Positions 485-50,197 of a stretch of DNA of 50,631 bases are shown piece by piece. Source of the stretch: a virus. The notes beneath the pieces were generated by a model. The model was given only the letters and a program-made list of their open reading frames with translations, made no database searches and was not told the origin of the DNA. The stretch is from IMG/VR virus record IMGVR_UViG_3300046665_000065, positions 1-50,631 of that record; one strand, written 5' to 3'. The translations under genes were made by a program, and so were the position numbers. Each line of letters starts with the position of its first letter. The first letter of the stretch is position 1.

Positions 485-658
485 ATGATTACCAAGTACG
501 TAGTGGTAGCCAAAGAAGTTCATCTAATGCCTCATAACATTACTGAGAAGATTGTTAAGGTCTACGGACCCTTCTCACACCAATACGCTGTCAAAGCCTT
601 AGATCAACTCAAAGGAGATGGACTGGAACTTGAAATCCACGAACTCAGTTACCATTAA
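485..658 (+). CDS. Small protein, 57 aa, function unknown
   Basis: The ATG at 485 has a strong AGGAGAGG ribosome site at 472-479 and is the first gene after the 372-400 promoter. The frame is open further upstream to 278, but those codons lie before the transcription start, so 485 is preferred. The product begins MITKYVVVAKEVHL and looks like a small alpha/beta domain. Its last 41 bases overlap the start of primase-helicase, which suggests translational coupling. No family recognised. Confidence 0.8.
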   Translation: MITKYVVVAKEVHLMPHNITEKIVKVYGPFSHQYAVKALDQLKGDGLELEIHELSYH

Positions 659-2231
659 TTCTCATATTCCTTGTCCCGATCCGAAGTGCGGATCATCCGA
701 TGCAGCTACAGAGTACGATTGGGGCATTAAGTGTTTCTCCTGCATGAAAGCCTTCCCTCACCCGAAAGGAAAAGACATCAACCTGTCAGAGCCCGATCCG
801 TCTGAGTTCTCAACACCCCCACCCGGCCCCGAAACCTTCACCCTTGAGTATGTCCCGTGGCGGGGCGTCACAGCCGATACTATGCGGTTTTACAAGTGCG
901 GTACCAAAGTGGACCCTACTGGTAAGCCCGTTAGTCTAGGATACCAATATCCCGGCGGAGGTATCAAAGTCCGTAGTCTTGCAGATAAGCAGTTCTGGTC
1001 CACCGGGAGCATGTCCGCTCCGGGGTTGTTCGGTCAGGATAAGTTCCCTGCTGCGTCCAGCAAATCCATCACTATTACCGAAGGTGAACTAGATGCGCTC
1101 AGTGTCTTTCAGATGCTTGGGTCTTCGTACCCGGCTGTTTCGGTGCGATCTGCCTCGTCAGCACGCAAAGATTGCCAGCAGGCTTTTGATTATCTCAATA
1201 GCTTCGAAAAGATTTACCTTGCGCTCGATAACGACGAACCCGGACGTAAAGCGTCGAGGGAGGTTGCAAGTCTATTCGATTTCAATAAAGTCTTCGAGGT
1301 CAAACTCGACGCATACAAAGACGCCAACGAATACCTAACCAAGGACAAGCTAAGGGAATTCAAGAATGTTTGGTGGAACGCTAAGCGATATCTCCCTGAG
1401 GGAGTCGTCTCCTCACTTAGTGAGTTTAGACGTATTCTTGACGAGGACAAGGAAAAGCCTTCCATTCCTTATCCGTTCGGGACTCTCCAAGAGCGAACTA
1501 TGGGCATTCGTACAGGAGAGTTCATCCTCGTCACGGCTCCAGAAGGTATTGGAAAGACGGAATTCATCCGGCGACTGGAACACCATCTTCTGTCGACTAC
1601 GGTCGTCCCAATTGGATGCATTCATCTTGAAGAAACCAAGTCACGCCAGCTCAAAGGACTTGCTGGTATCGAACTTGGAGCGCCTGCGCACCTACCTACA
1701 GGCAACGTAAGTCATGAAGAAATTGAAGGTGCGTTGGCCAAGCTTACCAGTGGTCGTGATGACCGCCTTCATATCTACAGCCATTTCGGCTCCGACGACC
1801 CAGACATTCTTCTCGAAACCATTAGATTTCTTGTTTGTGTTTGTGGTTGTAAGTATGTTTTCCTGGATCACATTACTATGGTTGTATCGGGATTAGAAAC
1901 AGATGACGAACGAAGGACTCTCGATTACCTCAGCACGAAGCTCGCTACGATGTGCCATGACCTCGATTTCACGTTGTTCTGCATTAGTCACGTCAATGAC
2001 GATGGAAAAACGAGAGGCTCACGAAACATCTCTAAGGTCGCTAATCTCCGAATTGACCTCAGCAGAAATCTTGTTGCAGAGCTTGAAGAAGACCGCAACA
2101 AGACGTTTGTCACAGTGTCCAAGAACCGTTACGCAGGAAAAACGGGACCGGCTGGTGTTCTAGCCTTCGACGTCGATGAGTTTATCCTGAAAGAAGACTA
2201 CCAAGTTCTACACCTCCCTCCTATGGCATAA
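618..2231 (+). CDS. DNA primase-helicase, T7 gp4-like
   Basis: A 537-residue fusion of primase and ring helicase that unwinds the fork and makes primers for the phage polymerase at 4195. An N-terminal zinc ribbon has Cys pairs within residues 19-45 (CPDPKCGSS, KCFSCMK). A TOPRIM core follows with the Glu in ITITEGELDA (near residue 155) and LALDNDEPG (near 204). The RecA/DnaB-type helicase has a Walker A in VTAPEGIGKTEF (near 310), a Walker B-like VFLDHITMVV and a C-terminal CISHVND/RGSRN stretch. T7 gp4 is 566 residues, so the protein is essentially full length. The ATG at 618 lies only a few bases after AAAGGAG, which is unusually close. A TTG at 630 is an alternative start, but the function call does not depend on it. 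Confidence 0.95.
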   Translation: MDWNLKSTNSVTINSHIPCPDPKCGSSDAATEYDWGIKCFSCMKAFPHPKGKDINLSEPDPSEFSTPPPGPETFTLEYVPWRGVTADTMRFYKCGTKVDPTGKPVSLGYQYPGGGIKVRSLADKQFWSTGSMSAPGLFGQDKFPAASSKSITITEGELDALSVFQMLGSSYPAVSVRSASSARKDCQQAFDYLNSFEKIYLALDNDEPGRKASREVASLFDFNKVFEVKLDAYKDANEYLTKDKLREFKNVWWNAKRYLPEGVVSSLSEFRRILDEDKEKPSIPYPFGTLQERTMGIRTGEFILVTAPEGIGKTEFIRRLEHHLLSTTVVPIGCIHLEETKSRQLKGLAGIELGAPAHLPTGNVSHEEIEGALAKLTSGRDDRLHIYSHFGSDDPDILLETIRFLVCVCGCKYVFLDHITMVVSGLETDDERRTLDYLSTKLATMCHDLDFTLFCISHVNDDGKTRGSRNISKVANLRIDLSRNLVAELEEDRNKTFVTVSKNRYAGKTGPAGVLAFDVDEFILKEDYQVLHLPPMA

Positions 2232-11610: not shown

Positions 11611-12032
11611 AGAGTATCTACATCATTGGCAGCCTCCGGAACAAGAACATTCCGGAGGTAGGGAATACCCTACGAGCCCACAGTTGGGACGCATTCGATG
11701 ACTGGTACGGAGCGGGACATGAAGCCGACGATGCGTGGCGAGACTACGAAAACCTACGAGGCCGATCTCACAAGGACGCCCTATACGGCTTTGCTGCAAG
11801 ACACGTCTTTGCATTTGATAAGCATCATCTTGACAGGTGCGACTTGGCTGTTCTTGTTATGCCCGCTGGTAAGTCTGGTCATCTTGAGTTGGGTTATTTC
11901 GTCGGTAGTGGTAAGCCCGGTTTTATATTGTTTGAGGAAGTTCCGGAACGCTACGACGTGATGCACCAGTTCGCTACTGACGTCTTCTACTCTACTGGTG
12001 ATCTATTAACTGGATTGGAGAGTTTTCGCTAA
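11607..12032 (+). CDS. Nucleoside 2-deoxyribosyltransferase-like protein
   Basis: A 141-residue Rossmann-like protein. IYIIGSLRN at the first strand, a conserved WDAFDDWYGAG region, and LAVLVMPAGKSGHLELGYF with the likely catalytic Glu in HLELGY match the nucleoside deoxyribosyltransferase family. The reaction would exchange or release a base from a deoxynucleoside. It starts at the ATG coupled to the previous stop. It is grouped with DUF4406 (12277) and a dNTP diphosphohydrolase (12636). Confidence 0.8.
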   Translation: MKSIYIIGSLRNKNIPEVGNTLRAHSWDAFDDWYGAGHEADDAWRDYENLRGRSHKDALYGFAARHVFAFDKHHLDRCDLAVLVMPAGKSGHLELGYFVGSGKPGFILFEEVPERYDVMHQFATDVFYSTGDLLTGLESFR

Positions 12033-12280: not shown

Positions 12281-12639
12281 GCCCTAAGATTTACATCGCC
12301 GGGCCTATGACCGGCTATCCGAACTTTAACTTCGATGCCTTCCACGCCGCTGCCAAGAAGTTCAAGGATATGGGTTGGACGGTCTTCAATCCTGCTGAGA
12401 AGGACGAGGAAGATGGTGTTGTTGACGGTGCTGGATGGTCCGAAGGAGACGATCAGAAGCTGGTGGCCTCGGGCTGGGACTTCCGTGCAGCCTTCACATG
12501 GGACTGCCAGAAGGTTATCGAAGCTGACGCCATTTATGTCCTTAAAGGCTGGGAGGCTTCTTCCGGGGCTACGGCTGAGATTGCTGTCGCCAAGGCCATT
12601 AAGGCCCGCTACCCTGAGTACGAGATTATTTATCAATGA
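12277..12639 (+). CDS. DUF4406, nucleoside-deoxyribosyltransferase-like fold
   Basis: A 120-residue protein from TTG 12277. KIYIAGPMTGYPNFNFDAF and GWTVFNPAEKDEEDG are typical of DUF4406. The C-terminal KGWEASSGATAEIAVAKAI supplies the second half of the nucleotide-binding fold. The activity is not established. It forms a block with 11607 and 12636, which suggests deoxynucleotide turnover. Confidence 0.85.
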   Translation: MSPKIYIAGPMTGYPNFNFDAFHAAAKKFKDMGWTVFNPAEKDEEDGVVDGAGWSEGDDQKLVASGWDFRAAFTWDCQKVIEADAIYVLKGWEASSGATAEIAVAKAIKARYPEYEIIYQ

Positions 12640-13148
12640 ACGCATTTACTGAAGCCGCAGCAGAACAAGTAGCAGACCTCGCGATGACCATCAAGGACTC
12701 ACTAGAGCCCCGGTTCAAGGGCCCGTTCAACCAAGGTCCTCCCGGAACAGAGTTCAATATCGACTCCCAAGAGTGGGAGTATCCGACGTCTAAAGAGTCC
12801 CTCCGTGAGGGTGACGACCCGAATAAGATGGGAGTTAAGTTTGACAATGGTAAATGCCGCGATGATCTCATCCCGCCAGAAGTTGAAGAGGCGCTTGCGA
12901 CAGTGCTTGAATTTGGGGCTCGAAAGTATGCTGAGCGCAATTGGGAGCAAGGCATGCTATGGTCAAGGCCCTATGCGGCTGCTCGACGCCACTTGCGTAA
13001 TTGGTTTGCCAGACGGGACTACGGTAAAGGTCCGGGCAACGACAAAGACTCTGGCTACTCTGACCTCTGGCATGCATGCACAAATATTGCCTTCCTCATT
13101 GCTTACGAAGCCCGAGGCAAAGGCAAAGACGACCGACCTTCAGCTTGA
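12636..13148 (+). CDS. dATP/dGTP diphosphohydrolase-like protein
   Basis: A 170-residue all-helical protein of the phage dATP/dGTP diphosphohydrolase N-terminal family. Signature stretches are GVKFDNGKCRDDLIPPE, LEFGARKYAERNWEQG, AAARRHLRNWFA and a Ser/Asp/Leu-His end (YSDLWHACTNIAFLIAYE). It would convert purine dNTPs to monophosphates and so shift the dNTP pool. In some phages such enzymes accompany base-modified DNA, but the PurZ partner needed for 2-aminoadenine is not seen here. Confidence 0.8.
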   Translation: MNAFTEAAAEQVADLAMTIKDSLEPRFKGPFNQGPPGTEFNIDSQEWEYPTSKESLREGDDPNKMGVKFDNGKCRDDLIPPEVEEALATVLEFGARKYAERNWEQGMLWSRPYAAARRHLRNWFARRDYGKGPGNDKDSGYSDLWHACTNIAFLIAYEARGKGKDDRPSA

Positions 13149-15600: not shown

Positions 15601-18600
15601 TATTTTCGTTTCTCTTGGAGTTCATAGTAACGCTTCAATGCAGGGATGCTCTGGAGCTGGTTGGTATTCTTGAGGAAGGACTGGTTAACGCTGTCCACTA
15701 GGGACTCGTTGTTACCCGTAGCCTTCTTGAAGACGTCCAGCTTCTTAGCCTGAGTGAAATCCGCAGCAGCACTTAGGGCGTTGTTACGGTTCATGTAGTC
15801 CGTCATGGTCTGGTATTCACCACGCTGCGCAGCCGCAAAGCCGAGCTTGTAGTTCTCCATCATGATCTTCTCAGTCTTTTCCCACACACCCTTCTGGGCT
15901 TTCTGTAGGTCCAGCTTCTGGTAGGCATCTGAGACCGTCTTAGGCGTCAGACCTAGAGCCAGCATAAAGCTGTCGTAGCTATCAACGTCACCTTGGAACA
16001 TCTCGTTCTTGGAGATGAACTTACCAGTGGTCATGCCGATGTAAGCCTTCTCGATATTGCTGAAACCAGACAGGGTCTCGGCAAGTCCGACGAAGTCATT
16101 CATCTTAAGACCAAGGTTGCTGTCCAACCCGGACCAGATATAAGCTCTGAACGGCTGGGTGGAGTTGTAGACGTTCTTGACGAAGCCGCCTGAGGCACCG
16201 CCGATAACTTCTAGTGCACCCTTCTTACCAGAGATGATATCTGAAATCTGAGTAGCGTTAGGCGCGAACCTCTGGAAATCAGTATCGTGACCGGAAATAG
16301 CGTTCGTTAACATCGCAGGAAGTCCCTCAGAGAAAGCCTGATAGAACTTATCCGTGACGTCGATGTTGTTCTTGAGCGCGTACTGGCGGATATCTTGATA
16401 GTTCAGCATCGGGATCGTACCGAAGGTGATACCACCGAGCGTAGCCGGGACACCGTACATAGTCGAGTACGCAGTGACCGCACGGGCTTTCTCACCCCAC
16501 GTTAACTGCTTACCAACCATCTGTTCGGTGAAGCGGGCATTCCATGTCCAGAACTGAGTGACAGGGCTGAGTAGGCCCTCGTTGTAAGCAGCGTTACTAG
16601 CGCGGGTCATGTTCATGGACAGGGTATCGAAGCGTCGGGTAATGTCACCCATTGCACGATTATCCAGAGCAGCCGTAGCGTTAGCAGCACGCCAATCACT
16701 ATAAGCCGTGAAGAACGCTGTATCGCGAACGATACTTTCACCAGCCTTGAAGAACATCTGGCCCTTGTCGAGGAACGTAGCCGCTCCCGATTTGAACAGG
16801 ACAGGGTCTTGAAGCTGGCTCAGAGTAGCAGTTTCACCACCGATGTTATGCGTACCTGAGTTCTTCCAAGCGTTCCAAGCCTCGGTGAAGTGATCCTTGT
16901 TCCATCCAAGAGCCGCAGCCTTATCAGCAGCCGAAGCAAGGATTGCAGGGTCTTCGGTATAACGATATACGCGGGCCAACGCCGAAGCGGTAGTTCCCTT
17001 GAGACCGTTAAGCGGGGACAATGCGAGAACGTGGGTCAAGCCCTGAGCCTGCTGGAATAGCTGGACAGGATTGAACATACCAATGACCGAGTGGAAGGCA
17101 CCAGCACGAGCGTATGCCGGGGCGTCCTTAATCATAGGCAGGAAGGTTTCTTCAGCCTTGGTAGCAAGCTTAGTGCCACCGATGCTTTCGATCCCTGCGA
17201 CGACCTTCTTCTCAAGACCTTCCATCAGGGCACCGACTTCGTCTCGGGCACCAATGAAGTTCAGGATGTTCTTGCGGCTCACCAAAGCAGCCTGATAAAG
17301 CTCAGGGTTCTTCTTGGCGAAGCCTACGTCAAGGTTGCCTTCCGCGTGACCCATCCAGTACACAGGGTTCTGGCGGAGCTTCTCCTGAGGCAGCTTGCTC
17401 TGGTCGAATAAGAGACCAAACTCCTGCACCCATGACTCAGCAGCCTGCGTCTTGTAGTCGCCCATCCAACGAGCCCGGACGATCTGAGCCACACCCTTTT
17501 GGAGTGCAGTATAGGGATCGTACAGTCGGGAGGGAACATCCGCATAGATCGGGTTCTCTTCCGTGCCTTTGTTGGCGATGGTGTTAAGCTGCTTATCCCT
17601 AGAAGCAAGGAACTTACTGTCCTGCGTCTGGGTCAGATCGTAGCTGGAGAACGTATCCTTCAATCCCGGATAGGCTCTTGCGAGTTCTTCCGAGGACTCA
17701 AAGGTGTTACGTCCAGTAGCGGTCAAGACAAAGGGATGGTCAACAGAGAGGTTTGCACCACCTCCGGTGAACAACTTCTTGAACTCAGGCAGAGTCTCGG
17801 GGAGATTACCTGCGTCGATGAAGTCCTTAAGTCCCTTCTCGTCCCCAGCCTTTAGCAGCTTTCTGGCTGTCTCATACTTCTGGACCCAAGCGGTACCTTC
17901 ACGCTCACCTGCGAACGACTTAACCGAGGTATCTCCGAAGTGGGTTTCACGTCCGAGAGTTCCGGTGCCGATCTGAGGCTGCTTCATGAAGTACTGGTCT
18001 TGGTAGATAACGTGGCCACCCGGACGGTAGACCGAGTTTTCACCGAACTTAATTGCCTTGTCTTCGTATTTGTCAACAACCACAAAGTGGATATTGTCAT
18101 TAATCTTAGTGGCGTCTCGGAGGGGCTTAGACCCAGGATTGTACACCTGAATGATCTGGTATTCACCAGACTTAATCTTGGCGTTGATCTGAGTTTCCTC
18201 GACAGTCGGCGACTTCAGTTTAAACTTAGTCGTGAACTTGCTCTCAGGCATGATATAGATGTTCGCGTCCTGCGTATTAACAGGATCGAAGTTATCTACC
18301 TTCTTGCCGTTGAACCATCCGGTCTTACCAGTGCTTGGAACGCCCACTTCATCGAGCTGCTTAAAAGACAACTGGTAGTTGCGGACACCCTGACGGGCTT
18401 TGTCCCGATGCCAATCCAGTTCTCGAAGGACCCAATCGAAGTCACTCAACCGAGTGAACTGGTCATAGGCTGCGATCTGCTTCTCAGTTGGCAGCTTGCC
18501 GTGCATGGAATTAAAAGCTGTCTCGAACTCTAAAGCAGATTTGTAGAACTGTCCACGTTCACCAGTGGGCTCCATGAAGTCACGGTTGGACTCAAGGATG

Positions 18601-21140
18601 CGCTGGAGGTCATGGCGCTCAGACTTGGACATGCCCTTGAAGGTTTCAGAGGCATCTTCCAGAGCCTTACGCATAATGCTCGGGGCATGGGTGGCGACGG
18701 TGCGGTTGTTCATCTGGAACTCAGACGAGGTAAACGCACTGCTGCGGATGGTATTGCCTTTACCAAGGACACGCCCGGTAACGGTATTTACGAGAGTATT
18801 CCAGAAGCCCTGAGGGGTAGTATTCTCTGAGACGATCAGTCCATCACGGACAGCAGCTTTCGTTTCGTCGGCGTGCTGAATATGTGAGATGTAGAACTGG
18901 TTGCCTTCCTGTTTAACCTCCGAGCCTTTACCAAGACGGTATTGAAACGACCGATAGTGCTCAGCCTGAACGCTCGTATCGAATAGAGTTCCGTCCCGTT
19001 TGCCAAAGCGGCTTTCGACGTAATAAGTATTCGAGGCAGAGTCCCAATGGGAAACCTGATCCAGAATACTGTCGGAGGCTCGGTTGTATCGGTCACGGAC
19101 TACCTGCTTGGCTTGTTCGATGCTACGGGAGTATGCCTCAGCCGTCAGCCTCTCGACCCGAGTAGGATCAAGGATAGCTGCGCCAAGCTCAGTACTTACT
19201 CGTGTGGCTTCGTCTGCGAGACGTTGGGCACGTTCACGAGTCAGCGAGGATGCGTTGTGGAAGAACGATTGCGGGCTGACCAGCGAGGGAACGTTCCGGC
19301 GAATAGCTTCTACGTCACCGCCTTGGACAACCTGCTGGAAACGGTTCGTAAGATTAGTCTCAGCAGCAAGGGTAGCAGCGGCTTCGTGCTGTCCCATCTT
19401 CGAGAGTACATCCTGAGGATGGGTCTCCGCTTGGGCTTTGACGATGTCAGCAAGAGCGACACGGGTTTCAATCTCCGCAGGTTCAACAATCTTAGAGCCG
19501 AAGCGGATGTTCTGCTGCATCTGATCGTCGACACGGGTGATCCGTTCACCGAAGTTCTCCAGAGTAGGCTTTGCAGTCCCTTCTGGGATATGGACAGGGT
19601 ACAGACCTTCGCCCGGCTTGTCCGAGATACGGCCAGCAGGGACGCGGCTTGTAGGCACCATCTTACCCGGACGGATATTGTCCAGATCGGCAACGTGAAC
19701 ACCCTTGTCATCACGGAGAAGGGTGAAGTTCTTATCAGGGTCTAGGCTTTGGCTGAGGGTTTCTGAGTCCTTCTTGGAGACGTAGATGGTCCGTCCCGGC
19801 TGATCCGGGTTGTAATCAACTGTGCCTGACTTGGTCGTATAACTGGTCTTCCGAGTAGGTGCTTCCACAGTAACCGGAATATCACCCACTTCAGGTGTAC
19901 CACGAAGACTAACTTCAGCGCCGTCCTGCGTAAAGACTCTCGGCTTACCATTCTCAACACGGGCTTCTCCTAGACGGGACTGAGTCTCCCAAGGGCGCTT
20001 GACAGCACTCTCAGGCATGTAGAACTTAGCCTCAGGGGTAGGAGACGTACGAAGGATGCTTTCAGCGGTATCGAGGGCTCCTGCGGCAGCACGATCACCA
20101 GCGGTCACCGGGGGTTTCGGACTGGCCTTCAGGACGTCCTGAGCCTCTGCTAGGGCTTTATCCAGCGTCTGGACACCCTGAGCCACGGACTTGCCTCCAC
20201 GTAGTCCAGCAATGGCCTTGAGGCCGGTACCGACAGGGATAATCGAGGCGACGTTAACGACACCGTAGAGGTTGTCTACGTAGGCGTCTGAGGTACTGAA
20301 CTGGACGGCAGCCTGCACAAAGGCAAGGGCACCTTTAGGGTCGGTCTTCCAGAAGTCACTTCCCGGACCAGCAGCAGCCATAAGCGTAGGTTTGAAGTCG
20401 GCATGGGGCAGGAGGTAGAGGTATTGGATTTGCTCCAGCTTATTGCTGCCCGGCAGGAAAGAGTTGCTCGGGGACTCGTTCAAGAGGTTCCGCTGGTTGA
20501 CGTAGGTAGCGATGCCACCAGTGGCTAGATCGGTAATGAGGTTGCCCAGCTTATCCTGCTGGTCGGGGTTATTGAAGCTAACCCAAGGGAGAGCGTCATG
20601 GGCAGCCTTAGCCGTCTCTAGGACATCCTGAGCCTGAGCCTTACGGGAGATAGCACCCTTGGCAACGGCGATGCCGTTCTGGGTCTCCTGAGGGGCCGTA
20701 TCGAACGCCGTCTGAAAGACAAGGTTCTTACCCGGATCACCAGCGACGGCATAGTTCACCATGTTCTTAGCGAACTTGTCTTCGAAGACTGTATCAGGAT
20801 TGGCCTCGGGGGTCGTACCCAGAGTCATCAATCCGTTGACTTCCCCGTCGGTAACAGGGTGGCCTTTGGCTGCGACATCTTTGATGACGTTCAGCTTGTC
20901 CTGACGGAACTCTGCATCGGCGGTAGCAGCAGCCTGCATTCGAGCCTGAGGCTCACCACCTGATCGGAACTGGTCCTTCAAGACCTGATGGCCCGGAGAC
21001 TTATCCCCTAGAGCGAAGTCCGCACGGGCGGCACGGGCACTAAGAGCCGCATCACCCAGCGAGGCGTTTACGTTGGGTTCGCCGTAGTTGAGCGTATCCG
21101 GTGCTTCTACCGGGGCGTCGCCGTATGCGAATTCATCCAT
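15600..21140 (-). CDS. Giant internal virion (ejection) protein, 1,846 aa
   Basis: The largest gene of the genome. T7 gp16 has 1,318 residues, so this is about 40% longer. The sequence is mainly helical, Ala/Lys/Asp-rich, with a middle beta-rich part (RTIYVSKKDSETL, KPLRDATKINDNIHFVVVD). The C-terminal third (from AGAFHSVIGMFNPVQLFQQ) has long amphipathic helices and FTEQMVGKQLTWGEKARAV. I see no clear lytic transglycosylase motif and no T7- or N4-type RNA polymerase motif. It probably enters the host with the DNA. TAATG coupling to the gp14-like gene transcribed just before it. Confidence 0.8.
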   Translation of the reverse strand: MDEFAYGDAPVEAPDTLNYGEPNVNASLGDAALSARAARADFALGDKSPGHQVLKDQFRSGGEPQARMQAAATADAEFRQDKLNVIKDVAAKGHPVTDGEVNGLMTLGTTPEANPDTVFEDKFAKNMVNYAVAGDPGKNLVFQTAFDTAPQETQNGIAVAKGAISRKAQAQDVLETAKAAHDALPWVSFNNPDQQDKLGNLITDLATGGIATYVNQRNLLNESPSNSFLPGSNKLEQIQYLYLLPHADFKPTLMAAAGPGSDFWKTDPKGALAFVQAAVQFSTSDAYVDNLYGVVNVASIIPVGTGLKAIAGLRGGKSVAQGVQTLDKALAEAQDVLKASPKPPVTAGDRAAAGALDTAESILRTSPTPEAKFYMPESAVKRPWETQSRLGEARVENGKPRVFTQDGAEVSLRGTPEVGDIPVTVEAPTRKTSYTTKSGTVDYNPDQPGRTIYVSKKDSETLSQSLDPDKNFTLLRDDKGVHVADLDNIRPGKMVPTSRVPAGRISDKPGEGLYPVHIPEGTAKPTLENFGERITRVDDQMQQNIRFGSKIVEPAEIETRVALADIVKAQAETHPQDVLSKMGQHEAAATLAAETNLTNRFQQVVQGGDVEAIRRNVPSLVSPQSFFHNASSLTRERAQRLADEATRVSTELGAAILDPTRVERLTAEAYSRSIEQAKQVVRDRYNRASDSILDQVSHWDSASNTYYVESRFGKRDGTLFDTSVQAEHYRSFQYRLGKGSEVKQEGNQFYISHIQHADETKAAVRDGLIVSENTTPQGFWNTLVNTVTGRVLGKGNTIRSSAFTSSEFQMNNRTVATHAPSIMRKALEDASETFKGMSKSERHDLQRILESNRDFMEPTGERGQFYKSALEFETAFNSMHGKLPTEKQIAAYDQFTRLSDFDWVLRELDWHRDKARQGVRNYQLSFKQLDEVGVPSTGKTGWFNGKKVDNFDPVNTQDANIYIMPESKFTTKFKLKSPTVEETQINAKIKSGEYQIIQVYNPGSKPLRDATKINDNIHFVVVDKYEDKAIKFGENSVYRPGGHVIYQDQYFMKQPQIGTGTLGRETHFGDTSVKSFAGEREGTAWVQKYETARKLLKAGDEKGLKDFIDAGNLPETLPEFKKLFTGGGANLSVDHPFVLTATGRNTFESSEELARAYPGLKDTFSSYDLTQTQDSKFLASRDKQLNTIANKGTEENPIYADVPSRLYDPYTALQKGVAQIVRARWMGDYKTQAAESWVQEFGLLFDQSKLPQEKLRQNPVYWMGHAEGNLDVGFAKKNPELYQAALVSRKNILNFIGARDEVGALMEGLEKKVVAGIESIGGTKLATKAEETFLPMIKDAPAYARAGAFHSVIGMFNPVQLFQQAQGLTHVLALSPLNGLKGTTASALARVYRYTEDPAILASAADKAAALGWNKDHFTEAWNAWKNSGTHNIGGETATLSQLQDPVLFKSGAATFLDKGQMFFKAGESIVRDTAFFTAYSDWRAANATAALDNRAMGDITRRFDTLSMNMTRASNAAYNEGLLSPVTQFWTWNARFTEQMVGKQLTWGEKARAVTAYSTMYGVPATLGGITFGTIPMLNYQDIRQYALKNNIDVTDKFYQAFSEGLPAMLTNAISGHDTDFQRFAPNATQISDIISGKKGALEVIGGASGGFVKNVYNSTQPFRAYIWSGLDSNLGLKMNDFVGLAETLSGFSNIEKAYIGMTTGKFISKNEMFQGDVDSYDSFMLALGLTPKTVSDAYQKLDLQKAQKGVWEKTEKIMMENYKLGFAAAQRGEYQTMTDYMNRNNALSAAADFTQAKKLDVFKKATGNNESLVDSVNQSFLKNTNQLQSIPALKRYYELQEKRK

Positions 21141-42388: not shown

Positions 42389-42808
42389 ATGACGCATCGC
42401 GTCTTCGTATACGGCACACTCAAGCGTGGCATCCAGAACCACCATCTTCTACGAGGTGCCGAGTATGTCGGGAATGCGTACACGATTGAATGTTTCACGA
42501 TGTTCAACGTAGGCTTCCCTGTCATTCGTACCTCGGAGTCTGAGGAAGCCCGGTCTGTATTCGGTGAGGTCTATGACGTAGACGACACCATTCTGGCGCG
42601 GCTCGACAGGCTGGAGAACAACGGCGTTATGTACGACCGCAAGACCGTACAGATCGCATTCCCTCCCGGTCAGGGTATGGCTAGTGGTGGCCAAGACCTG
42701 ATCGACGAGGCTGGTATCTACATCGGCAATCCTAAGTATTGGGATCAGTGCAGCCCCCAGCCGTACACCAATACGAACGACTTCGGAGAACTAGAATGGC
42801 ATCCGTGA
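42389..42808 (+). CDS. Gamma-glutamylcyclotransferase-like protein (AIG2/GGCT fold)
   Basis: A 139-residue protein with the family hallmark VFVYGTLKRG (residues 5-14), which forms the substrate-binding loop. VYDVDDTILARLDRLENNG carries the catalytic Glu near 76. Family members release 5-oxoproline from gamma-glutamyl amines or peptides. It is encoded with amidoligases and ATP-grasp that would make such bonds, so it may edit or trim the product. Confidence 0.9.
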   Translation: MTHRVFVYGTLKRGIQNHHLLRGAEYVGNAYTIECFTMFNVGFPVIRTSESEEARSVFGEVYDVDDTILARLDRLENNGVMYDRKTVQIAFPPGQGMASGGQDLIDEAGIYIGNPKYWDQCSPQPYTNTNDFGELEWHP

Positions 42809-43005
42809 ATGGATATATCATCTTTGAGGACGGGCACGTCGTAGCCAGGTGTGATACGCTGGCTGAGGCCAAAAGTTACGTCAAAGATGATATCGAGAAC
42901 CGTCACGACGAAACGGTATTCGAAATCTGCAAGATAGGTAAGTGTGTGGCAAAGGCGGTGCTTGTCGTGCCACCACGGCCTAAGAGAAACGTGCAATGGT
43001 CATGA
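42796..43005 (+). CDS. Small protein, 69 aa
   Basis: The ATG at 42796 overlaps the previous gene by 13 bases with CGGAGAA upstream. The product is GYIIFEDGHVVARCDTLAEA, then a helical acidic part and a second strand pair with FEICKIGKCVAKAVLV. A small alpha/beta domain with three Cys. Unknown function. Confidence 0.7.
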   Translation: MASVNGYIIFEDGHVVARCDTLAEAKSYVKDDIENRHDETVFEICKIGKCVAKAVLVVPPRPKRNVQWS

Positions 43006-43349
43006 CCCTAGACCTCACAAAGCCCGTTCAGACACGGGATGGCCGCAAGGTTCGAATAGTCTGTACGGACTACGCAAATACGTATAAACGGCCCATTATA
43101 GGACTCATCGCTGGCTTTGATGATGGGCGCTTCGGCCATGAAATGATGCAGGTGTACGCCTTGGACGGGACGTGTACCACCGCGGCGCAAGACCTCGTCA
43201 ACGTCCCCGAGAAGCGGTGGCTGAACATTTACACGAATAACCCCGGTTTGAAGTACCACACCTCGCGAGAGGCGGCGCGAAAGGAAGGGTTGTCTTCGTC
43301 GTGGTCGAAGTACTACCTCAAAACAATTGAGGTCGATCTATGCCCGTAG
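42996..43349 (+). CDS. Small phage domain protein, 117 aa
   Basis: Starts MVMTLDLTKPVQTRDGRKV, then RIVCTDYANTYKRPIIGLIA and a strand pair (MMQVYALDGTCT). The opening KPVQTRDGRKV pattern followed by an I-G-L-I strand recurs in unassigned phage proteins and fits a small beta barrel. It overlaps the previous gene by 10 bases (a second ATG lies at 43002). Function unknown. Confidence 0.75.
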   Translation: MVMTLDLTKPVQTRDGRKVRIVCTDYANTYKRPIIGLIAGFDDGRFGHEMMQVYALDGTCTTAAQDLVNVPEKRWLNIYTNNPGLKYHTSREAARKEGLSSSWSKYYLKTIEVDLCP

Positions 43350-43510
43350 ATTGTGAATTCCCACATTGTGATTGTCCTCACGAGGGCGATTGCGAAATGC
43401 TTGACGACACCTTCGACGATGAACTCGTCGGGGAAGACTGGATCGACGAAGCCTATCAACTGAAAACGGAGAGAAATCAAAATGACGAAGACTACATCTA
43501 TCGCCTCTAA
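43340..43510 (+). CDS. Acidic Cys-rich small protein, 56 aa
   Basis: The ATG at 43340 overlaps the previous gene by 10 bases. Four Cys and two His lie in the first 18 residues (DCEFPHCDCPHEGDC), a possible zinc site. The rest is strongly acidic (DDTFDDELVGEDWIDEAY). It overlaps the next gene by 29 bases. Within an amidoligase cluster such a Glu/Asp-rich peptide could be a carrier or acceptor, or it could be a host inhibitor. Both are speculation. Confidence 0.65.
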   Translation: MPVDCEFPHCDCPHEGDCEMLDDTFDDELVGEDWIDEAYQLKTERNQNDEDYIYRL

Positions 43511-44417
43511 AGCTGCTGACGCAGCGTCTAAGGCCAAGGCTCTTGTCGCTTCGATGTTCACGCTGGACACCACGAAGATCGACGCGCTTATCAACACGAT
43601 GGCAGCATCCGCGGGTGTTTCCACGGCCCGGTATTTCACGTTCAAGAAGAACGGTGATATCGTTTCACAGAACGAGACCGTGTGCTACCACGCCATCGCT
43701 AATTACTGCGAGTCCGCTGATGGTCTTGGGATCGTCTTCCAAGGTTATGGTGGCTTCGACAATGGCGACCGCTGGCGCAAGGCCAGTGAAGACGATCTCT
43801 TGTGTGACCGTGCGTATCCTTTCGTCAATGCCGATATGGGCCACTACAACGCGGAGTCTCTCGAATGGCTGAAAGCACTACTCGATCCGGAAGGACCGTT
43901 CAAGACGTTGTTGCCGCACATGCTGGAGACCGACCCGGAGAAGGTGCAGGCACGCCGTGCTTTTATCTTCCCGGACGTTTCTTCGATCCCGGCACGCCTG
44001 ACGTGGTGCTTCGCAATCGCCTCGCGGCTTGGTTACGCGAATGCCCGAGTACTCTGGAGATACTTGCATCTCTTGGAGAAGGGCTTGAGCCGTCCAATGG
44101 CGGTGCTGATCGCGTCGGGCTTCGAGGGTGAGATCAAGGTCGGTGAGCCGACGGGTCGCATCATCAAGTCCTATACGGGTGGGTTCCTTGGTGTAGACAC
44201 CACGGCCTACGCAGGACGGTTCCTGTCATGTTCCCCGGTCGAGGACAAGCCGTTCAAGGACCACAAAGTGGGAACCTACAGCAGCAGTAAGGTCTTCGAG
44301 TCGGGTAAGATCGACATGAAGAACCTCACCTTCGACAATTGGGATGCTGTTATCGCTTACACTGAGCAGCGGTATTCCGATCAGGTCAAGACCATCGGCC
44401 TGGAGAAGGCAGCATGA
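43482..44417 (+). CDS. Unknown protein of the amidoligase cluster, 311 aa
   Basis: The ATG at 43482 has CGGAGAG about 8 bases upstream. The N-terminal 40 residues are Ala/Lys/Ser-rich (SIASKAADAASKAKALVA), like the 39838 protein. The body has ARYFTFKKNGDIVSQNE, HAIANYCESADGLGIVFQG, RAFIFPDVSSIPARLTW and RPMAVLIASGFEGEIKVG. Composition is that of a folded globular protein. I do not recognise a family. Location suggests a role in the amide-bond pathway. Confidence 0.8.
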   Translation: MTKTTSIASKAADAASKAKALVASMFTLDTTKIDALINTMAASAGVSTARYFTFKKNGDIVSQNETVCYHAIANYCESADGLGIVFQGYGGFDNGDRWRKASEDDLLCDRAYPFVNADMGHYNAESLEWLKALLDPEGPFKTLLPHMLETDPEKVQARRAFIFPDVSSIPARLTWCFAIASRLGYANARVLWRYLHLLEKGLSRPMAVLIASGFEGEIKVGEPTGRIIKSYTGGFLGVDTTAYAGRFLSCSPVEDKPFKDHKVGTYSSSKVFESGKIDMKNLTFDNWDAVIAYTEQRYSDQVKTIGLEKAA

Positions 44418-44620
44418 CGACTACGTATATGGTCGAAATTGATGGTGAGATGAAGGACGGCGAAACCTTCGAAACCATCAAAGGAGCGCGTGACTTCGTG
44501 AAATCCGAAGCCGAAGACAACGGACAGACTGACTTTGAAGTCGCGATCTACAGCCTTCAATTGGTCGAAACCGGCCACGTTTCGGTTGCTGTCAACTGGG
44601 TACCAGCGAAGGTTAAGTAA
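44414..44620 (+). CDS. Small acidic protein, 68 aa
   Basis: ATGA coupling. The product is TYMVEIDGEMKDGETFETIK, then a helix (ARDFVKSEAEDNGQ) and a strand end (GHVSVAVNWVPAKVK). Small alpha/beta protein between the unknown 43482 protein and the class I amidotransferase. No family recognised. Confidence 0.7.
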   Translation: MTTTYMVEIDGEMKDGETFETIKGARDFVKSEAEDNGQTDFEVAIYSLQLVETGHVSVAVNWVPAKVK

Positions 44621-45253
44621 ATGATGCTCCAAGGCTGGCGATACCATATCGTCGGCGGAGATACCATGATCAATGATATGATGGTGTCGGGTCTTGCAAT
44701 TCCTACGGGGTTGCGGGATGCCGACATTGTCATTTTCTCAGGTGGCACGGATATCTCGCCGAAACTCTACAACGACGTCTCTCATCCGAAAACACAACGC
44801 TCCGACAATGAGCGAGATCGGGTGGAGCAGGCTGCTTTTCAGTTGGCAGTCCAAAAGAAGAAGCTCTGCGTCGGTATTTGTCGCGGGGCTCAGTTATTGA
44901 ATGTCCTGTCGGGTGGTAGTCTATACCAACACGTAGACAAGCACACTAATACCAACCACAAGGTCACCTACGTCAACGAGTCAGGTGAGAAGTACATCGT
45001 TGATGTTACCAGCGACCATCATCAGATGATGCGTACCGGCCCGTCTGGTTTGACGTGGGGTTGGTGTGGCCTATCCACGGTGAAGTCAACCGGACTGAAC
45101 GATACGATCATGGACAAGCATCATTCAGATGACCCCGAGATCGTCTACTACAAGCGCACGAATTCCCTGTGCTTTCAGCCCCACCCTGAATGGCATTTGA
45201 TGTCGTGTAAGTCGTTATTCTTTGATTGCATCAAACGAGCGATGCTGGCCTAA
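44621..45253 (+). CDS. Class I glutamine amidotransferase / gamma-glutamyl hydrolase-like (C26)
   Basis: A 210-residue protein with FSGGTDISPKLYND (residues 39-52), the nucleophile elbow VGICRGAQLLN with Cys 87, and HPEWH supplying His 188 and Glu 190 of the triad. The motif set is that of peptidase C26, which hydrolyses gamma-glutamyl amide bonds or feeds ammonia to a synthase. It is shorter than PuuD-type enzymes (about 250) but has all catalytic elements. It overlaps no neighbour but starts directly after the previous stop. Confidence 0.9.
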   Translation: MMLQGWRYHIVGGDTMINDMMVSGLAIPTGLRDADIVIFSGGTDISPKLYNDVSHPKTQRSDNERDRVEQAAFQLAVQKKKLCVGICRGAQLLNVLSGGSLYQHVDKHTNTNHKVTYVNESGEKYIVDVTSDHHQMMRTGPSGLTWGWCGLSTVKSTGLNDTIMDKHHSDDPEIVYYKRTNSLCFQPHPEWHLMSCKSLFFDCIKRAMLA

Positions 45254-45278
45254 GCCTAACTGGCGGAACGGAGAACAT

Positions 45279-46595
45279 ATGTGCGGTATCGTTGGGGTTA
45301 TGGGATATAACCTCGGTTATGGTGAAGTCAACAAGTTCAAGGACTTGATGGTACTCGCCCAGCTTCGCGGTGAAGAAGGGGCTGGTATGATTGCCATCCC
45401 GAAGAAGGCTACGATCCAGAAATCTCAGGTTCGTGTACGCCGGACGACGTGGTCGAGTGGCCATCTCGTGACGACCAAGGACTTCGACGAGTGCGTCAAG
45501 GGCGATACGAACATCCTGATCGGCCATGCCCGTGCACCCACGAAGGGCGGCAACGATATCAAGAATGTCCATCCCCATGCTTGCGGAGATGTCATCCTTG
45601 TCCACAACGGAACGATGACCTACGTCGATGACTCGTCGATCCCGGCTGGTGCCTCGGACAGCGCATTAATCACTAAGTGCATCGCTGAGAAGGGCGTCCA
45701 AGAATTCGTCAATACATCGTGGGGTGCGTACTGCCTGATCTGGCTGGACCTTCGCGATCAAACGATTAACTTCCTGCGCAACAACGAGCGTCCTTTGAGC
45801 ATCTGCTCGGAGCAGGTCACGTCCCATCCGAATTCATCAACCAGAAACTTCTGGTGGGCCTCCGAAGGGTGGATGCTGAACGTCGCCCTGTCACGTTACA
45901 CCGGCTACGCCAAGGAACGCTTCGTCTTGACGCAGCTTCCGAAGAACGAGCATTGGAAGTTCCCGTTGGACGTCAACCTTCAGTTGGCCAAGCCGGAGGT
46001 GACCATTGTAGAGCGCAAAGTTTTTCCAGTATCCAATCGGGTATACGCTGGCTGGGAGGCGTGGGCGGACGAGAACCAAGTCCCTTTCGAGCGAACACCC
46101 GCGACGAACGCAAGCGGGCTAAACAATACCGGAAGCAACGTCGCCACGACAAACGGGCCTTTTAGCTATATCGCCCCAGAGTTTCGGCAGCGGGGTACTG
46201 GTGTAGACGCTAACGCGCCTTCGAAGACCTACCCTGAGTCGTCACACAACCCGGCGACTATCCTGCACATGAGCTACCAGAAAGCTAAGATGGCGGGTAA
46301 CAAGCGAGAGCTTGACGAACGTGTGGCCAAGGCGATCAAGGAGGCTGCTGACAAGAAGCAGAGTACCTTTCTCAGCGAGGACAAACTCGAATACTTCGCA
46401 ACCAAGGACAAGAAGCGCGTACTCGATCTCGTTACCGCCGGGCCTTGTGTGTGGTGCAGCGAGCAGCCCCAAATCATCGCCGGGCATACCCCTCGTATCT
46501 ACCCGGTACGTTTTACGGAGACACGGGGGGAATACGTTTGTTCCGCCTGCATCCAAGACCTCGACGTCCAGCGGATGGTCGGGATCGCCTCATAA
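45279..46595 (+). CDS. Class II glutamine amidotransferase with C-terminal zinc finger
   Basis: The ATG at 45279 gives MCGIVGVMGYNLGYGE with the N-terminal nucleophile Cys 2, after CGGAG. Glutamine-binding motifs: LRGEEGAGMIAI (29-40), GHARAPTKGG (82-91) and LVHNGTM (108-113). The N-terminal domain would release ammonia from glutamine. No synthase domain of known type follows. A variable region and two Cys pairs, C-X2-C near 390-393 and near 421-424, form a probable zinc finger. Total 438 residues. Ammonia would have to go to a partner in the cluster. Confidence 0.9.
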   Translation: MCGIVGVMGYNLGYGEVNKFKDLMVLAQLRGEEGAGMIAIPKKATIQKSQVRVRRTTWSSGHLVTTKDFDECVKGDTNILIGHARAPTKGGNDIKNVHPHACGDVILVHNGTMTYVDDSSIPAGASDSALITKCIAEKGVQEFVNTSWGAYCLIWLDLRDQTINFLRNNERPLSICSEQVTSHPNSSTRNFWWASEGWMLNVALSRYTGYAKERFVLTQLPKNEHWKFPLDVNLQLAKPEVTIVERKVFPVSNRVYAGWEAWADENQVPFERTPATNASGLNNTGSNVATTNGPFSYIAPEFRQRGTGVDANAPSKTYPESSHNPATILHMSYQKAKMAGNKRELDERVAKAIKEAADKKQSTFLSEDKLEYFATKDKKRVLDLVTAGPCVWCSEQPQIIAGHTPRIYPVRFTETRGEYVCSACIQDLDVQRMVGIAS

Positions 46596-46625
46596 ACTCT
46601 TAATCGTCATCGGAGCTATCCTGCT

Positions 46626-47438
46626 ATGCAGTTCAATCTCGCTAATGTCACTATTGGTGCAGACCCCGAAATCTTCGTCGGCAAGTCCGATGAGATCGTC
46701 TCGGCCCACGCTATGGGTCTCGGAACCAAAGACCAGCCCATGGCTACGGAACATGGATCGGTACAAGTCGATGGACTAGCCCTTGAGGTGAACGTCAAGC
46801 CGAGCAAGTCTCGGTTCGAGTTCATTAAGAACTGTGCGGATGTTATCAAGGACTTGGACGGCCTCGTGAAGAAGGCTGATCCGGAGATGTACTTGATCGT
46901 CCGGCCTACGGCTTTCTTCACGCCGCAGTACCTCGAAAGTCTGCCGGAGGTCGCAAAGGAACTCGGTTGCAATCCTGATTGGAACGCCTATGAGCTACGG
47001 GAGAACGAACGTCCTGATGCGTCTGGCCCATTCCGCACGAGCGGAGGTCATATTCATATTGGCTGGGGTGATGATTTCAATCCGGAAAGTATGGAACACA
47101 TCGGTCTGTGTGCTGAGGTCGCGAAGCAGTTGGATTATTGCGTCGGTATGTCCTCGCTGGATTTCGACAAGGATGCCAAGCGGCGGGAACTCTACGGCAA
47201 GGCGGGATCATTCCGACCCAAGAAATACGGAATGGAGTACCGTACGCTGTCCCCAATGTGGCTCTTGTCAATGCAGCATACATCAATGGTGTATCAAGGC
47301 TGCATCAAAGCACTCCGGTTGCTCAATGAGGACCGTGTACTGGACGAAGAATTCGACGGACTAGCCCGCGATATCATCGACCAGAATATCACTAAGTGGC
47401 GGGAGATGCATCCCGAATTGGAGAAGTCAATCGCATGA
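46626..47438 (+). CDS. COOH-NH2 ligase type 2 (glutamine-synthetase-like fold)
   Basis: A 270-residue amidoligase of the type first noted in phiEco32-like phages. Motifs: GADPEIFVGK (11-20), VDGLALEVNV (48-57), SGGHIHIGWGDD (139-150) and FRPKKYGMEYRTLSPMW (196-212). The acidic and His residues bind metal-ATP and the Arg-rich end binds phosphate or substrate. It would join a carboxylate to an amine, or to ammonia from the amidotransferases. A GGAG site lies about 9 bases before the ATG. Confidence 0.9.
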   Translation: MQFNLANVTIGADPEIFVGKSDEIVSAHAMGLGTKDQPMATEHGSVQVDGLALEVNVKPSKSRFEFIKNCADVIKDLDGLVKKADPEMYLIVRPTAFFTPQYLESLPEVAKELGCNPDWNAYELRENERPDASGPFRTSGGHIHIGWGDDFNPESMEHIGLCAEVAKQLDYCVGMSSLDFDKDAKRRELYGKAGSFRPKKYGMEYRTLSPMWLLSMQHTSMVYQGCIKALRLLNEDRVLDEEFDGLARDIIDQNITKWREMHPELEKSIA

Positions 47439-48307
47439 CGACCTATTCTGGCAAACCCGGCCACGAGTACTTCAACGAGGCGCATTACGCTCAGCACTTC
47501 GAGTCTCGACGCATTCAGTCAATGGCGTGGAACATATCTCACGGCAAGCCTCAGTGGACCGAAGCAGACGAGATGAAACTCGTCGATAAGCTCCACATCG
47601 AATGGTTTGACGAGCCGTTCCATGGCAATCCGTGGACGTACCCTGAGTTGAACTTGGATACTCTGCCTCACCGTCCTTTGCGTCGTCGTGAGTTGGCACC
47701 GTTCAAGATCAACTACGAAACCTTTCAGGAGATCAAGCTTCGGCTGAACAATACTGTTATCTCGATCAAGGGCCATGCCTTCTTGGTATCCAAGATAAAG
47801 CAGTACGCACCGGGTAAGTTCGTTCTGGCTCTGACGGACAGCCTCGGCAAGCTTGTCTCGGTCAAGTACGACGATCTCCAAGACCTTCGGACGATCCCTC
47901 CGATGTACGTTGTATCCGGCATGACTGGCTGGCTGCGTCGTGTACCGGGCCGGGTCTACCAGCAGGGTATCAACCGCCAGAACACGTTCCTCTCGGATGT
48001 GGCTGGGCGTGGTGTCGTAGCCAACCTTGACTGCGCCCGTCTGGTGAAGAACCTCGGCACCCGTGAGAACCGGGTCTGGAACGAAACCATGTCTGGTTTG
48101 GTCAAGCAGGGGGAACTCCCTGTCATCAGGCTGAGCGACGATATCGCCGTGAAACGCGACGAAGACAACTCTATCCTCGCCTGCTACCGTGGGCGATCCT
48201 TGGGTAAAATCTTGGACAATGAAGTTTTTGTCATGGATGAAGACGACCTTTTGCAGGGTTGGATCGAAAGAGCGACTAAGGAAGTCGGACTGGAACTGCG
48301 AGCCTAA
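47435..48307 (+). CDS. Unknown protein of the amidoligase cluster, 290 aa
   Basis: The ATG at 47435 overlaps the ligase stop (ATGA). The sequence starts TYSGKPGHEYFNEAHYAQHF and includes NNTVISIKGHAFLVSKIKQY, MTGWLRRVPGRVYQQGINR and DDIAVKRDEDNSILACYRG. Mixed alpha/beta composition; no known catalytic motif. It sits between two amidoligases and is therefore a good candidate for a substrate-handling or regulatory subunit. Confidence 0.85.
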   Translation: MTTYSGKPGHEYFNEAHYAQHFESRRIQSMAWNISHGKPQWTEADEMKLVDKLHIEWFDEPFHGNPWTYPELNLDTLPHRPLRRRELAPFKINYETFQEIKLRLNNTVISIKGHAFLVSKIKQYAPGKFVLALTDSLGKLVSVKYDDLQDLRTIPPMYVVSGMTGWLRRVPGRVYQQGINRQNTFLSDVAGRGVVANLDCARLVKNLGTRENRVWNETMSGLVKQGELPVIRLSDDIAVKRDEDNSILACYRGRSLGKILDNEVFVMDEDDLLQGWIERATKEVGLELRA

Positions 48308-48317
48308 GGGTGTTATT

Positions 48318-49373
48318 ATGTTTACTGATGTTGTTAAGAAACCGCTATTTGAAGTCTTCAAGCGCCAGAAGAAAGTAGCGGATGTCGGTATTGAGATCGA
48401 GATTGAAGGCGCGGGTCTGCCAGAGAGTGTCTCCCATTGGTCTGCAAAGTCCGAGGGTAGCCTCCAGCAGGGTCTGGAATACATTACGAAGCCCATCAAG
48501 GCCGAGAACGTCAAGCAGTACGTAGACCACCTCAAGGCCGTCCTAGGCGGCTACACGGTCAAGAATACGTATCGTTGCAGCACCCACATCCACGTCAACA
48601 TGCTGCCTGAGGCTGTCGAGGACATCCTTGGGTATTACGTTGTCTTCTCGATGTTCGAGCCTTTGTTGTTGTCACTTTGTGGCAATCAGCGGGACGGCAA
48701 CCTCTTCTGTATGTCGTCGTATGACACAGGAGATTTGACCGACAGCTTCGACCAGATGTGCCGGGCGTTTGAGATGATCGACCAGTACGGCTTCGGGTAT
48801 GAGCGGGGCAAGTACTCGTCTCTGAACTCAGGCCGCTTGGCTGATCTCGGTACATTGGAGGCACGCTGCTTTCCGATGAGCCTTGACGGTACGCAGGTCG
48901 CTGATTGGGTGGGCTGGCTGCTTCGGATGCGTGACATGGTACGGGCTGAGCCGGACAAGACCTTCCGTAGTCTTTGGAAGAACGTCCGTCAGAACCCGAC
49001 GTGGTACGCCAATATCATCTTCGGTCAGGCGATTTACACCATTCCGAACCATGTCTCTTTGGTGGACTTCGGAACGGAATGTGCCTATGAGTTGACGAAG
49101 GTGCTTAAGAAGTACCGGAACAAGACCGCTGAGGAAGCACCTCAAAAAAAAGATCGGCCTAAGAAAGGCTTGGGCAGCATAAACACTCTGAGTGCGGCAG
49201 CCATCAACGATCTCTACGCTTCGATGGCGGCACCGACAGTTAGCGGCAGTGGTGGTGGTTCTTTCTTTACCTCGTCCAGTGGTTCTTGGGCTACTGCTGT
49301 TCCGGTTTCAGCACCGGCTGCTTGGCCGTCTGATCTTCCTCAACCAATCGACGACGTGGAGTCTCAATTCTAA
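48318..49373 (+). CDS. Amidoligase enzyme (PF12224-like)
   Basis: The ATG at 48318, 10 bases after the previous stop, gives 351 residues. Motifs of the second amidoligase type: VGIEIEIEGAG (23-33), SLQQGLEYITKPI (48-60), CSTHIHVNM (87-95) and SSLNSGRLADLGTLEARCF (167-185). It is a glutamine-synthetase-fold, ATP-dependent ligase, distinct from the one at 46626. The C-terminal 75 residues are a Ser/Gly/Pro low-complexity tail, separated from the domain by an A8 run (49144-49151). Confidence 0.9.
   Translation: MFTDVVKKPLFEVFKRQKKVADVGIEIEIEGAGLPESVSHWSAKSEGSLQQGLEYITKPIKAENVKQYVDHLKAVLGGYTVKNTYRCSTHIHVNMLPEAVEDILGYYVVFSMFEPLLLSLCGNQRDGNLFCMSSYDTGDLTDSFDQMCRAFEMIDQYGFGYERGKYSSLNSGRLADLGTLEARCFPMSLDGTQVADWVGWLLRMRDMVRAEPDKTFRSLWKNVRQNPTWYANIIFGQAIYTIPNHVSLVDFGTECAYELTKVLKKYRNKTAEEAPQKKDRPKKGLGSINTLSAAAINDLYASMAAPTVSGSGGGSFFTSSSGSWATAVPVSAPAAWPSDLPQPIDDVESQF
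49143..49151 (+). other. A8 slippery run in the amidoligase gene
   Basis: The frame reads CAA AAA AAA GAT at codons 276-279, so A-AAA-AAA is in the phase of a -1 slippery heptamer. Slipping -1 gives AGA TCG GCC TAA and ends the protein about 281 residues long, removing the low-complexity tail. This could give two forms or be an accidental run. Confidence 0.4.
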
Positions 49374-50197
49374 TGATTATCCATCCGTACAAGCTCGGCA
49401 GCCGTTCGGCTAAGCGGCTCAAAGAAGTCATCAACCAGTCGAGTACTCACTCGCGCATCGCAACGGTCCTGAGACGCCAGCCTCGGGGTAAGAAGTGTCT
49501 CATTGTGAATTGGGGTGGCTCAGCAATCGAGTACCCCGAAGGCAATAACTGGATCATTAACTCCCCTAAGGACGTCGTTGAGATGTCCGACAAGGTTCTC
49601 TTTTTCAATAAGGTAGGCCATGACAAATCTTTCCTTGAATGGACATCTGACCGCTCTACGGCAGCCGAATGGGCAAGTAAAGGTAAAGTGTTCGTCCGGC
49701 ACCTTACACGCGCGTCGTCCGGCAGAGGTATTGATGTATGGTCTCCTGAACGGGGGGAACCTGTACCAAGCGCACCCCTGTATACCCGGCACCAACCGAA
49801 AACGCACGAATACCGAGTACATATGGCTCGGAGCCTCACAGGATGCAGCTTCGAACCAATTCTCGTCCAACGTAAGGTATTCGTTCCAAAGGAAGGAAGT
49901 GCCCCCAAGTCATGGGATGTACGTAGTCACGATAACGGGTTCATCTTTCAAGCATACCCGGACACCACCAAAGTACCGGGGTCCGTACTAGACACCTGCC
50001 GTAAGGCAATGGCTAAGCACTTCGCAGAGATGCACTTTGTGGCTCTGGACGTCCTTTACCATCAGCCTTCCGATACTCCGGTGATCTGCGAGGGTAACAC
50101 CGCACCGGGTCTGGAGAACAATACGGTAGATGTCTATGCTCAGTACTTCCTCGGACTGAACGAAGAATTCAAGAAAGAACGGATGGTGTACCTGTGA
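49373..50197 (+). CDS. ATP-grasp ligase
   Basis: A 274-residue ATP-grasp domain protein. Nucleotide loop FVRHLTRASSGRGIDVW (107-123), EYRVHM (146-151), and the metal/ATP-binding end FVALDVLYH (222-230) with VICEGNTAPGLEN (237-249), Glu 240 and Asn 242. The family makes peptide or amide bonds through an acyl-phosphate. It overlaps the amidoligase stop by one base (TAATG), so the two are co-translated. Confidence 0.88.
   Translation: MIIHPYKLGSRSAKRLKEVINQSSTHSRIATVLRRQPRGKKCLIVNWGGSAIEYPEGNNWIINSPKDVVEMSDKVLFFNKVGHDKSFLEWTSDRSTAAEWASKGKVFVRHLTRASSGRGIDVWSPERGEPVPSAPLYTRHQPKTHEYRVHMARSLTGCSFEPILVQRKVFVPKEGSAPKSWDVRSHDNGFIFQAYPDTTKVPGSVLDTCRKAMAKHFAEMHFVALDVLYHQPSDTPVICEGNTAPGLENNTVDVYAQYFLGLNEEFKKERMVYL

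Follow-up and report, generated by a model that had tools for sequence, protein, structure and literature searches.

Which reactions does a phage carry out with a compact run of genes for three ligases, two amidotransferase-like enzymes and a cyclotransferase? The question is raised by the IMG/VR virus record IMGVR_UViG_3300046665_000065, a podophage genome whose 50,631 bases form the whole stretch of DNA analysed here (the window), and which holds at positions 42389-50197 what can be read from the genes alone as an amide-bond cassette. We consider it somewhat probable that its enzymes make a gamma-glutamyl bond which is then cleaved by either of two enzymes, a hydrolase of the peptidase C26 type or a cyclotransferase (GGCT). 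All six enzymes named in a preliminary description of the locus have family matches, five of them above curated Pfam cut-offs; the exception is the ATP-grasp protein, recognised through phrog_2599, its relatives and its family profile. Two further members, proteins D and I, had been missed, and the six stand as enzymes but not as a complete list. The members are as follows:

42389..42808, + strand: GGCT, a protein resembling gamma-glutamylamine cyclotransferase (GGACT, AIG2-like), optional member; PF06094 5.3e-22, 79.1 bits against a cut-off of 22.8; phrog_2520 1.7e-20
43482..44417, + strand: protein D, conserved but unannotated, encoded upstream of the C26 gene
44621..45253, + strand: GAT-I, predicted peptidase C26-type gamma-glutamyl hydrolase; PF07722 1e-21, 78.1 bits against a cut-off of 20.5; phrog_7218 3.5e-40
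45279..46595, + strand: GAT-II, class II glutamine amidotransferase (N-terminal nucleophile, Ntn) with a C-terminal CxxC...CxxC; PF13522 1.1e-9, 38.8 bits against a cut-off of 27; phrog_4736 1e-43
46626..47438, + strand: COOH-NH2 ligase type 2, phiEco32-like, glutamine synthetase (GS) type; PF14395 5.2e-8, 32.9 bits against a cut-off of 25; phrog_3815 5.4e-70
47435..48307, + strand: protein I, conserved but unannotated, encoded between the two GS-type ligases; phrog_11055 2.9e-9 (unknown function)
48318..49373, + strand: Amidoligase_2, putative, GS type; PF12224 1.8e-6, 28.5 bits against a cut-off of 22; phrog_7469 2.3e-33
49373..50197, + strand: RimK-like ATP-grasp ligase; phrog_2599 4.3e-40; family profile against the RimK S6 glutamate ligase in the PDB 8.5e-8

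The main evidence comes from the gene content of relatives. We profiled 330 loci together with the window; filtering at 90% identity of the COOH-NH2 ligase, with a minimum of 6.5 kb of sequence to either side, left 121 non-redundant loci. Every one of the 121 has GAT-II, the amidoligase, the ATP-grasp ligase and, by selection, the COOH-NH2 ligase; protein I occurs in 112, the C26 hydrolase in 93, protein D in 72 (by sequence) and GGCT in 58. All 28 loci that lack the C26 gene possess a GGCT, 27 of them within the locus and one, L099, elsewhere in its record as found by a whole-record search; GGCT accompanies C26 in 31 of 93 loci. The association is strong (Fisher p=1e-9, before the correction for L099), and C26 was absent in whole-record searches of seven C26-less virus records. 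On a four-gene tree, simulated independent evolution predicts roughly 12 loci devoid of both enzymes, against 0 observed (P=0.001 and 0.0005), and a model with dependent rates of C26 and GGCT change fits better (likelihood ratio 15.6, p=0.0036).

The two enzymes thus appear to substitute for each other, either being dispensable only while the other is present, and gamma-glutamyl cleavage appears obligatory beside a four-enzyme core made of GAT-II, the two GS-type ligases and the RimK-like ATP-grasp ligase. Both the C26 and GGCT families cleave gamma-glutamyl bonds, so a bond of this kind is probably formed in the pathway. The gamma-glutamyl product suggested in the preliminary description gains support from this exchange. 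The cyclotransferase that it counted in the set is indeed there, its catalytic Glu76 being conserved in 58 of 58 sequences, but as an optional component when C26 is present rather than as part of the core.

The same description had seen in GAT-I a class I amidotransferase. Its triad Cys87, His188 and Glu190 holds, invariant in 93 of 93 sequences; the class label does not, as the protein scores only 21.1 bits with the class I glutamine amidotransferase family PF00117, under the cut-off of 22.8. Lin1909 and PuuD are among the nearest solved relatives of its profile; in NCBIfam it comes closest to gamma-glutamyl-CDP-amidate hydrolase and PuuD, both scoring well under cut-off. With 78 bits for C26 against 21 for GATase, and with gamma-glutamyl hydrolases as its nearest named families, GAT-I reads as a predicted gamma-glutamyl hydrolase and is better named so than as an ammonia donor. 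Provision of ammonia by both amidotransferases, as first envisaged, is unlikely: GAT-I groups with the hydrolases, GGCT, which supplies no ammonia, can take its place, and only GAT-II has the canonical glutaminase site.

The profile of GAT-II matches the glutaminase domains of PurF and GlmS. Cys2, by which a class II enzyme had been recognised, is found in 107 sequences and replaced by gaps in 14, where the start of the open reading frame was probably placed downstream. Asp127 is kept in 121 of 121 sequences and Arg85, Asn110 and Gly111 in 119; the cysteines C390, C393, C421 and C424 of the C-terminal part are conserved as well. No known synthetase domain was found in the protein.

Among the ligases, motif residues of the COOH-NH2 ligase are invariant in 120-121 of 121 sequences, and E26/E28/E30, E54, H90/H92, R125, E181 and R183 of the amidoligase in 120 of 120; taken together, the tested positions of both GS-type ligases are conserved in 119-121 sequences. 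A profile comparison of the two with each other gave no detectable relationship. In the ATP-grasp ligase K74, R109, E146, R148, K168, D226, E240 and N242 are invariant in 121 of 121. Eight of 13 of its relatives match RimK in Pfam; the protein of the window by itself matches neither a Pfam family nor an NCBIfam equivalog, and its likeness to RimK is at superfamily level only. The preliminary description would have been given up had hidden Markov model searches failed for at least two ligases, or had catalytic residues proved unconserved; what we find are family matches and residues kept in up to 121 relatives. The ATP-grasp gene is at times duplicated: one cassette (L006) has two diverged copies, and two are also present in several others, e.g. 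L036, L066, L069 and L076.

We now propose a pathway for the cassette. The two GS-type ligases and the RimK-like ligase would form ATP-dependent amide bonds, with GAT-II probably providing ammonia to them, unless it works as an Ntn amidohydrolase, and with protein I probably holding or recruiting the ligases or the target. One or more products or intermediates would carry a gamma-glutamyl amide in need of cleavage, be it for editing, to take off a gamma-glutamyl group added temporarily, or for turnover; the C26 hydrolase or GGCT, either one, would perform this step. Predicted in this way, the chemistry is reasonably supported. Some points weigh against it: the reactions are deduced solely from the families, sequence searches found no solved relative for either GS-type ligase, and the loci were sampled through a single gene, that of the COOH-NH2 ligase. 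Moreover, the tree contains only six well-supported independent differences in C26, and the pair test on them is not significant; as such pairs are too few, the phylogenetic support for the exchange is moderate and model-based.

An unbiased clustering of every open frame in the first locus set independently brought out both proteins D and I, D in 56 loci. In protein D, C68 is kept in 68 of 69 sequences and R182 in 69 of 69; a Glu near position 186 is usual, the window having Ala there. Its AlphaFold model (pTM 0.83) finds BFVD matches at E<=0.001 that include CW02 and CVT22, and weaker ones in RIO-1, LAh_8, GAP52 and tf, from which the fold of D may extend past the reach of sequence detection. 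Foldseek returned nothing significant for it in the PDB, its best match in VIA is cofilin-like (Z 4.8; glutamine synthetase, Z 3.2), and profile comparison with each GS-type ligase gave nothing.

Protein I is modelled with a pLDDT of 92.5 and contains a Tudor/KOW-like barrel at about residues 100-155; its best structural match is weak (a Tudor domain, Z 4.6 over 51 residues), and no significant Foldseek match was found. As the barrel is joined by scattered Gly/Arg conservation only, and by no conserved catalytic set, the model suggests binding rather than catalysis.

The genes of the cassette are tightly packed, and the overlaps of start and stop codons noted earlier are real: ATGA at 44414, ATGA at 47435 and TAATG at 49371-49375. 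The first involves a small frame:

44414..44620, + strand: open reading frame of 68 amino acids, not conserved; overlaps D (ATGA) and abuts the C26 gene; no PHROG match and no relatives in other loci

Small open reading frames B and E are not conserved across the cassette loci. We also considered a small peptide conserved as carrier or acceptor, and rejected it, since unbiased clustering gave none between D and the ATP-grasp gene. Outside that interval, a 117-amino-acid protein encoded between GGCT and D (42996-43349, + strand) is related to proteins of four further cassette loci (L005, L015, L019 and L034).

Beyond the ATP-grasp gene, across the ends of the record, the downstream neighbour of the cassette is a replication gene:

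618..2231, + strand: DNA primase/helicase; phrog_239 3.5e-130

The cassette is directly upstream of this gene, with a spacing that matches the near relative L004; its position at 618-2231 implies that the cassette precedes the primase in a circular or permuted genome, as in L004. In the first locus set, the primase/helicase adjoins the cassette in 51 of 51 loci. When loci were instead sampled by primase, the full core was present in 7 of 21 with enough upstream sequence, most others having no member within 10 kb: the cassette is common, not universal. Two variant clusters (L331 and L332), adjoining a primase closely related to that of the window, have the order ATP-grasp, amidoligase, GAT-II, GGCT; no COOH-NH2 ligase was found in them.

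The COOH-NH2 ligase occurs in 316 phage records, and a pattern scan found it in 462 viral contigs. Scanning 84,980 bacterial and archaeal species genomes yielded 9 loci, all in metagenome-assembled bins on contigs of 4-50 kb; since these loci are probably phage, we rejected a cellular origin or a bacterial twin of the cluster. Two distant COOH-NH2 ligases (L329 and L330, 29-30% identity) come from bins labelled Flavobacteriales and Alphaproteobacteria and probably lie on phage contigs as well. By nucleotide search the window has no close relative among phage records; of the named phages, Zobellviridae such as PA11 and CVT22 come nearest, with about 45% identity in the COOH-NH2 ligase.

Elsewhere in the window, two large frames of 1846 and 697 amino acids are on the minus strand (15600-21140 and 13507-15600), the latter with no match in a PHROG search. 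On the plus strand, frames at 11556-12032 and 12636-13148 have PHROG matches that are nucleoside deoxyribosyltransferase-like and dATP/dGTP pyrophosphohydrolase-like or lysozyme-like.

The kind of cassette is already known: it is the early amide-bond cassette of podophages of the phiEco32/RIO-1 type, in the fuller form seen in Zobellviridae and in Sinorhizobium phage phiM6. What is new is the constraint on its chemistry, together with the two overlooked members D and I. phiEco32, RIO-1 and LUZ24 share with the window the COOH-NH2 ligase, amidoligase, GAT-II, RimK-like ATP-grasp and GGCT beside the primase/helicase. However, C26 is absent from phiEco32 and LUZ24, where GAT-II follows the amidoligase; in the window C26 and clear D and I proteins are present, and GGCT is upstream of the ligases, not downstream. 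PA11, CVT22, Klyazma and CW02 (Zobellviridae) have the same GAT-I, GAT-II, COOH-NH2 ligase, I (as a hypothetical gene), amidoligase, ATP-grasp and primase, although their proteins are only about 20-45% identical to those of the window. GGCT was not found in the stretches of PA11, CVT22 and Klyazma examined, and in CW02 it is on the primase side. phiM6 has every component, including C26, GGCT and D, and differs by a second GAT-II and by having two GGCTs. The likeness to phiEco32-type clusters asserted in the preliminary description is thus borne out, with the same order in PA11, CVT22, CW02 and phiM6 and a rearranged one in LUZ24 and phiEco32. Recurrence of one gene order in unrelated phages places the arrangement far beyond chance.

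On what would such a pathway act? In phiEco32, RIO-1, PA11, LUZ24 and CW02 the cluster has been reported as a "peptidoglycan modification cassette" (PMC5498523, PMC11945000), a role predicted by comparative genomics (PMC5498523, PMC11945000, PMC10580990) that later papers trace to Iyer 2009 and Hardies 2013. Our search of the literature found no demonstrated reaction for the cassette and, as the preliminary description had it, no established substrate. In the cell-wall proposal made in those papers, the three ligases would add unusual peptide links to peptidoglycan side chains and C26 or GGCT would cut existing gamma-D-glutamyl links, altering the wall against superinfection. We consider this possible, though less likely than not. 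The named hosts are Gram-negative, and immediate expression fits a change of the surface: in the related phage PSA-HP1 the predicted peptidoglycan genes are transcribed immediately on infection (PMC7082346). However, we found no supporting experiment in the literature, nothing in the window links the cluster to wall genes, and the N-termini are devoid of evident signal peptides, so that action on the wall would need cytoplasmic precursors. Stem peptides of Gram-negative bacteria do contain a gamma-D-glutamyl bond, and our best guess for the target, put forward with reserve, is a cytoplasmic cell-wall precursor peptide, on which the cassette would act early in infection.

A small molecule, our second guess, is possible but somewhat doubtful: the pathway would gamma-glutamylate a polyamine or another amine, or make a phage metabolite under a removable gamma-glutamyl protection. 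A GS-type ligase with a C26 hydrolase and a gamma-glutamylamine cyclotransferase resembles gamma-glutamylamine metabolism; the PuuA/PuuD route for gamma-glutamylated amines, like other C26 hydrolase systems, pairs the first two, the GAT-I profile matches PuuD and gamma-glutamyl-CDP-amidate hydrolase (those of NCBIfam below cut-off), and no protein acceptor is encoded in the cassette. Unlike PuuA/PuuD, however, the cassette has no oxidase, dehydrogenase or aminotransferase, and it has two GS-type ligases of other families in addition to ATP-grasp and GAT-II. Redox, aminotransferase and export genes are not conserved with it, and three ligases seem many for one simple amide.

That a host protein is the target comes third, and we find it unlikely, as we do the broader proposal in which a host or phage protein receives glutamates or other amino acids from the RimK-like enzyme, has this tag amidated or extended by the other ligases, and loses it again through C26 or GGCT. 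Protein modification as such was suggested earlier for related phage enzymes, those of the R2K clade of ATP-grasp proteins; the solved structures nearest to the ATP-grasp protein are those of ribosomal protein S6 glutamate ligases, and barrels like that of protein I are typical of binding modules. Yet the RimK similarity does not go below superfamily level, the cassette includes no conserved small carrier or acceptor protein, and the substrates of the C26 and GGCT families are small gamma-glutamyl compounds, not proteins. Hypermodification of phage DNA with amino-acid-type side groups would suit the neighbouring replication genes, and unusual DNA bases of other phages use amidotransferases. 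It is nevertheless very improbable, since the DNA of cassette phages is cut by ordinary restriction enzymes: that of phage tf by RsaI, HpaI, EcoRV, SmaI and HaeIII (PMC3517423), and that of the LUZ24-like phage U17 by 11 of 16 enzymes (PMC11945000).

Returning to the formation and cleavage of a gamma-glutamyl bond, the cassette could run an otherwise unknown pathway confined almost entirely to viruses, with an intermediate that the four-enzyme core builds and that needs opening by C26 or GGCT, protein I as a scaffold and D possibly catalytic, yielding a phage-specific modification with no cellular counterpart. We regard this extension as rather unlikely.

Hundreds of podophages of Pseudomonas, Escherichia, Vibrio, Klebsiella and other hosts carry the cassette, under a peptidoglycan-modification label that is more than a decade old and for which the literature offered us no demonstrated reaction. 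With at least one gamma-glutamyl-cleaving enzyme in every complete cassette, and with C26 and GGCT exchanging for each other, its chemistry is narrowed to one that can be assayed directly, to which proteins D and I add two further handles missed by annotation.

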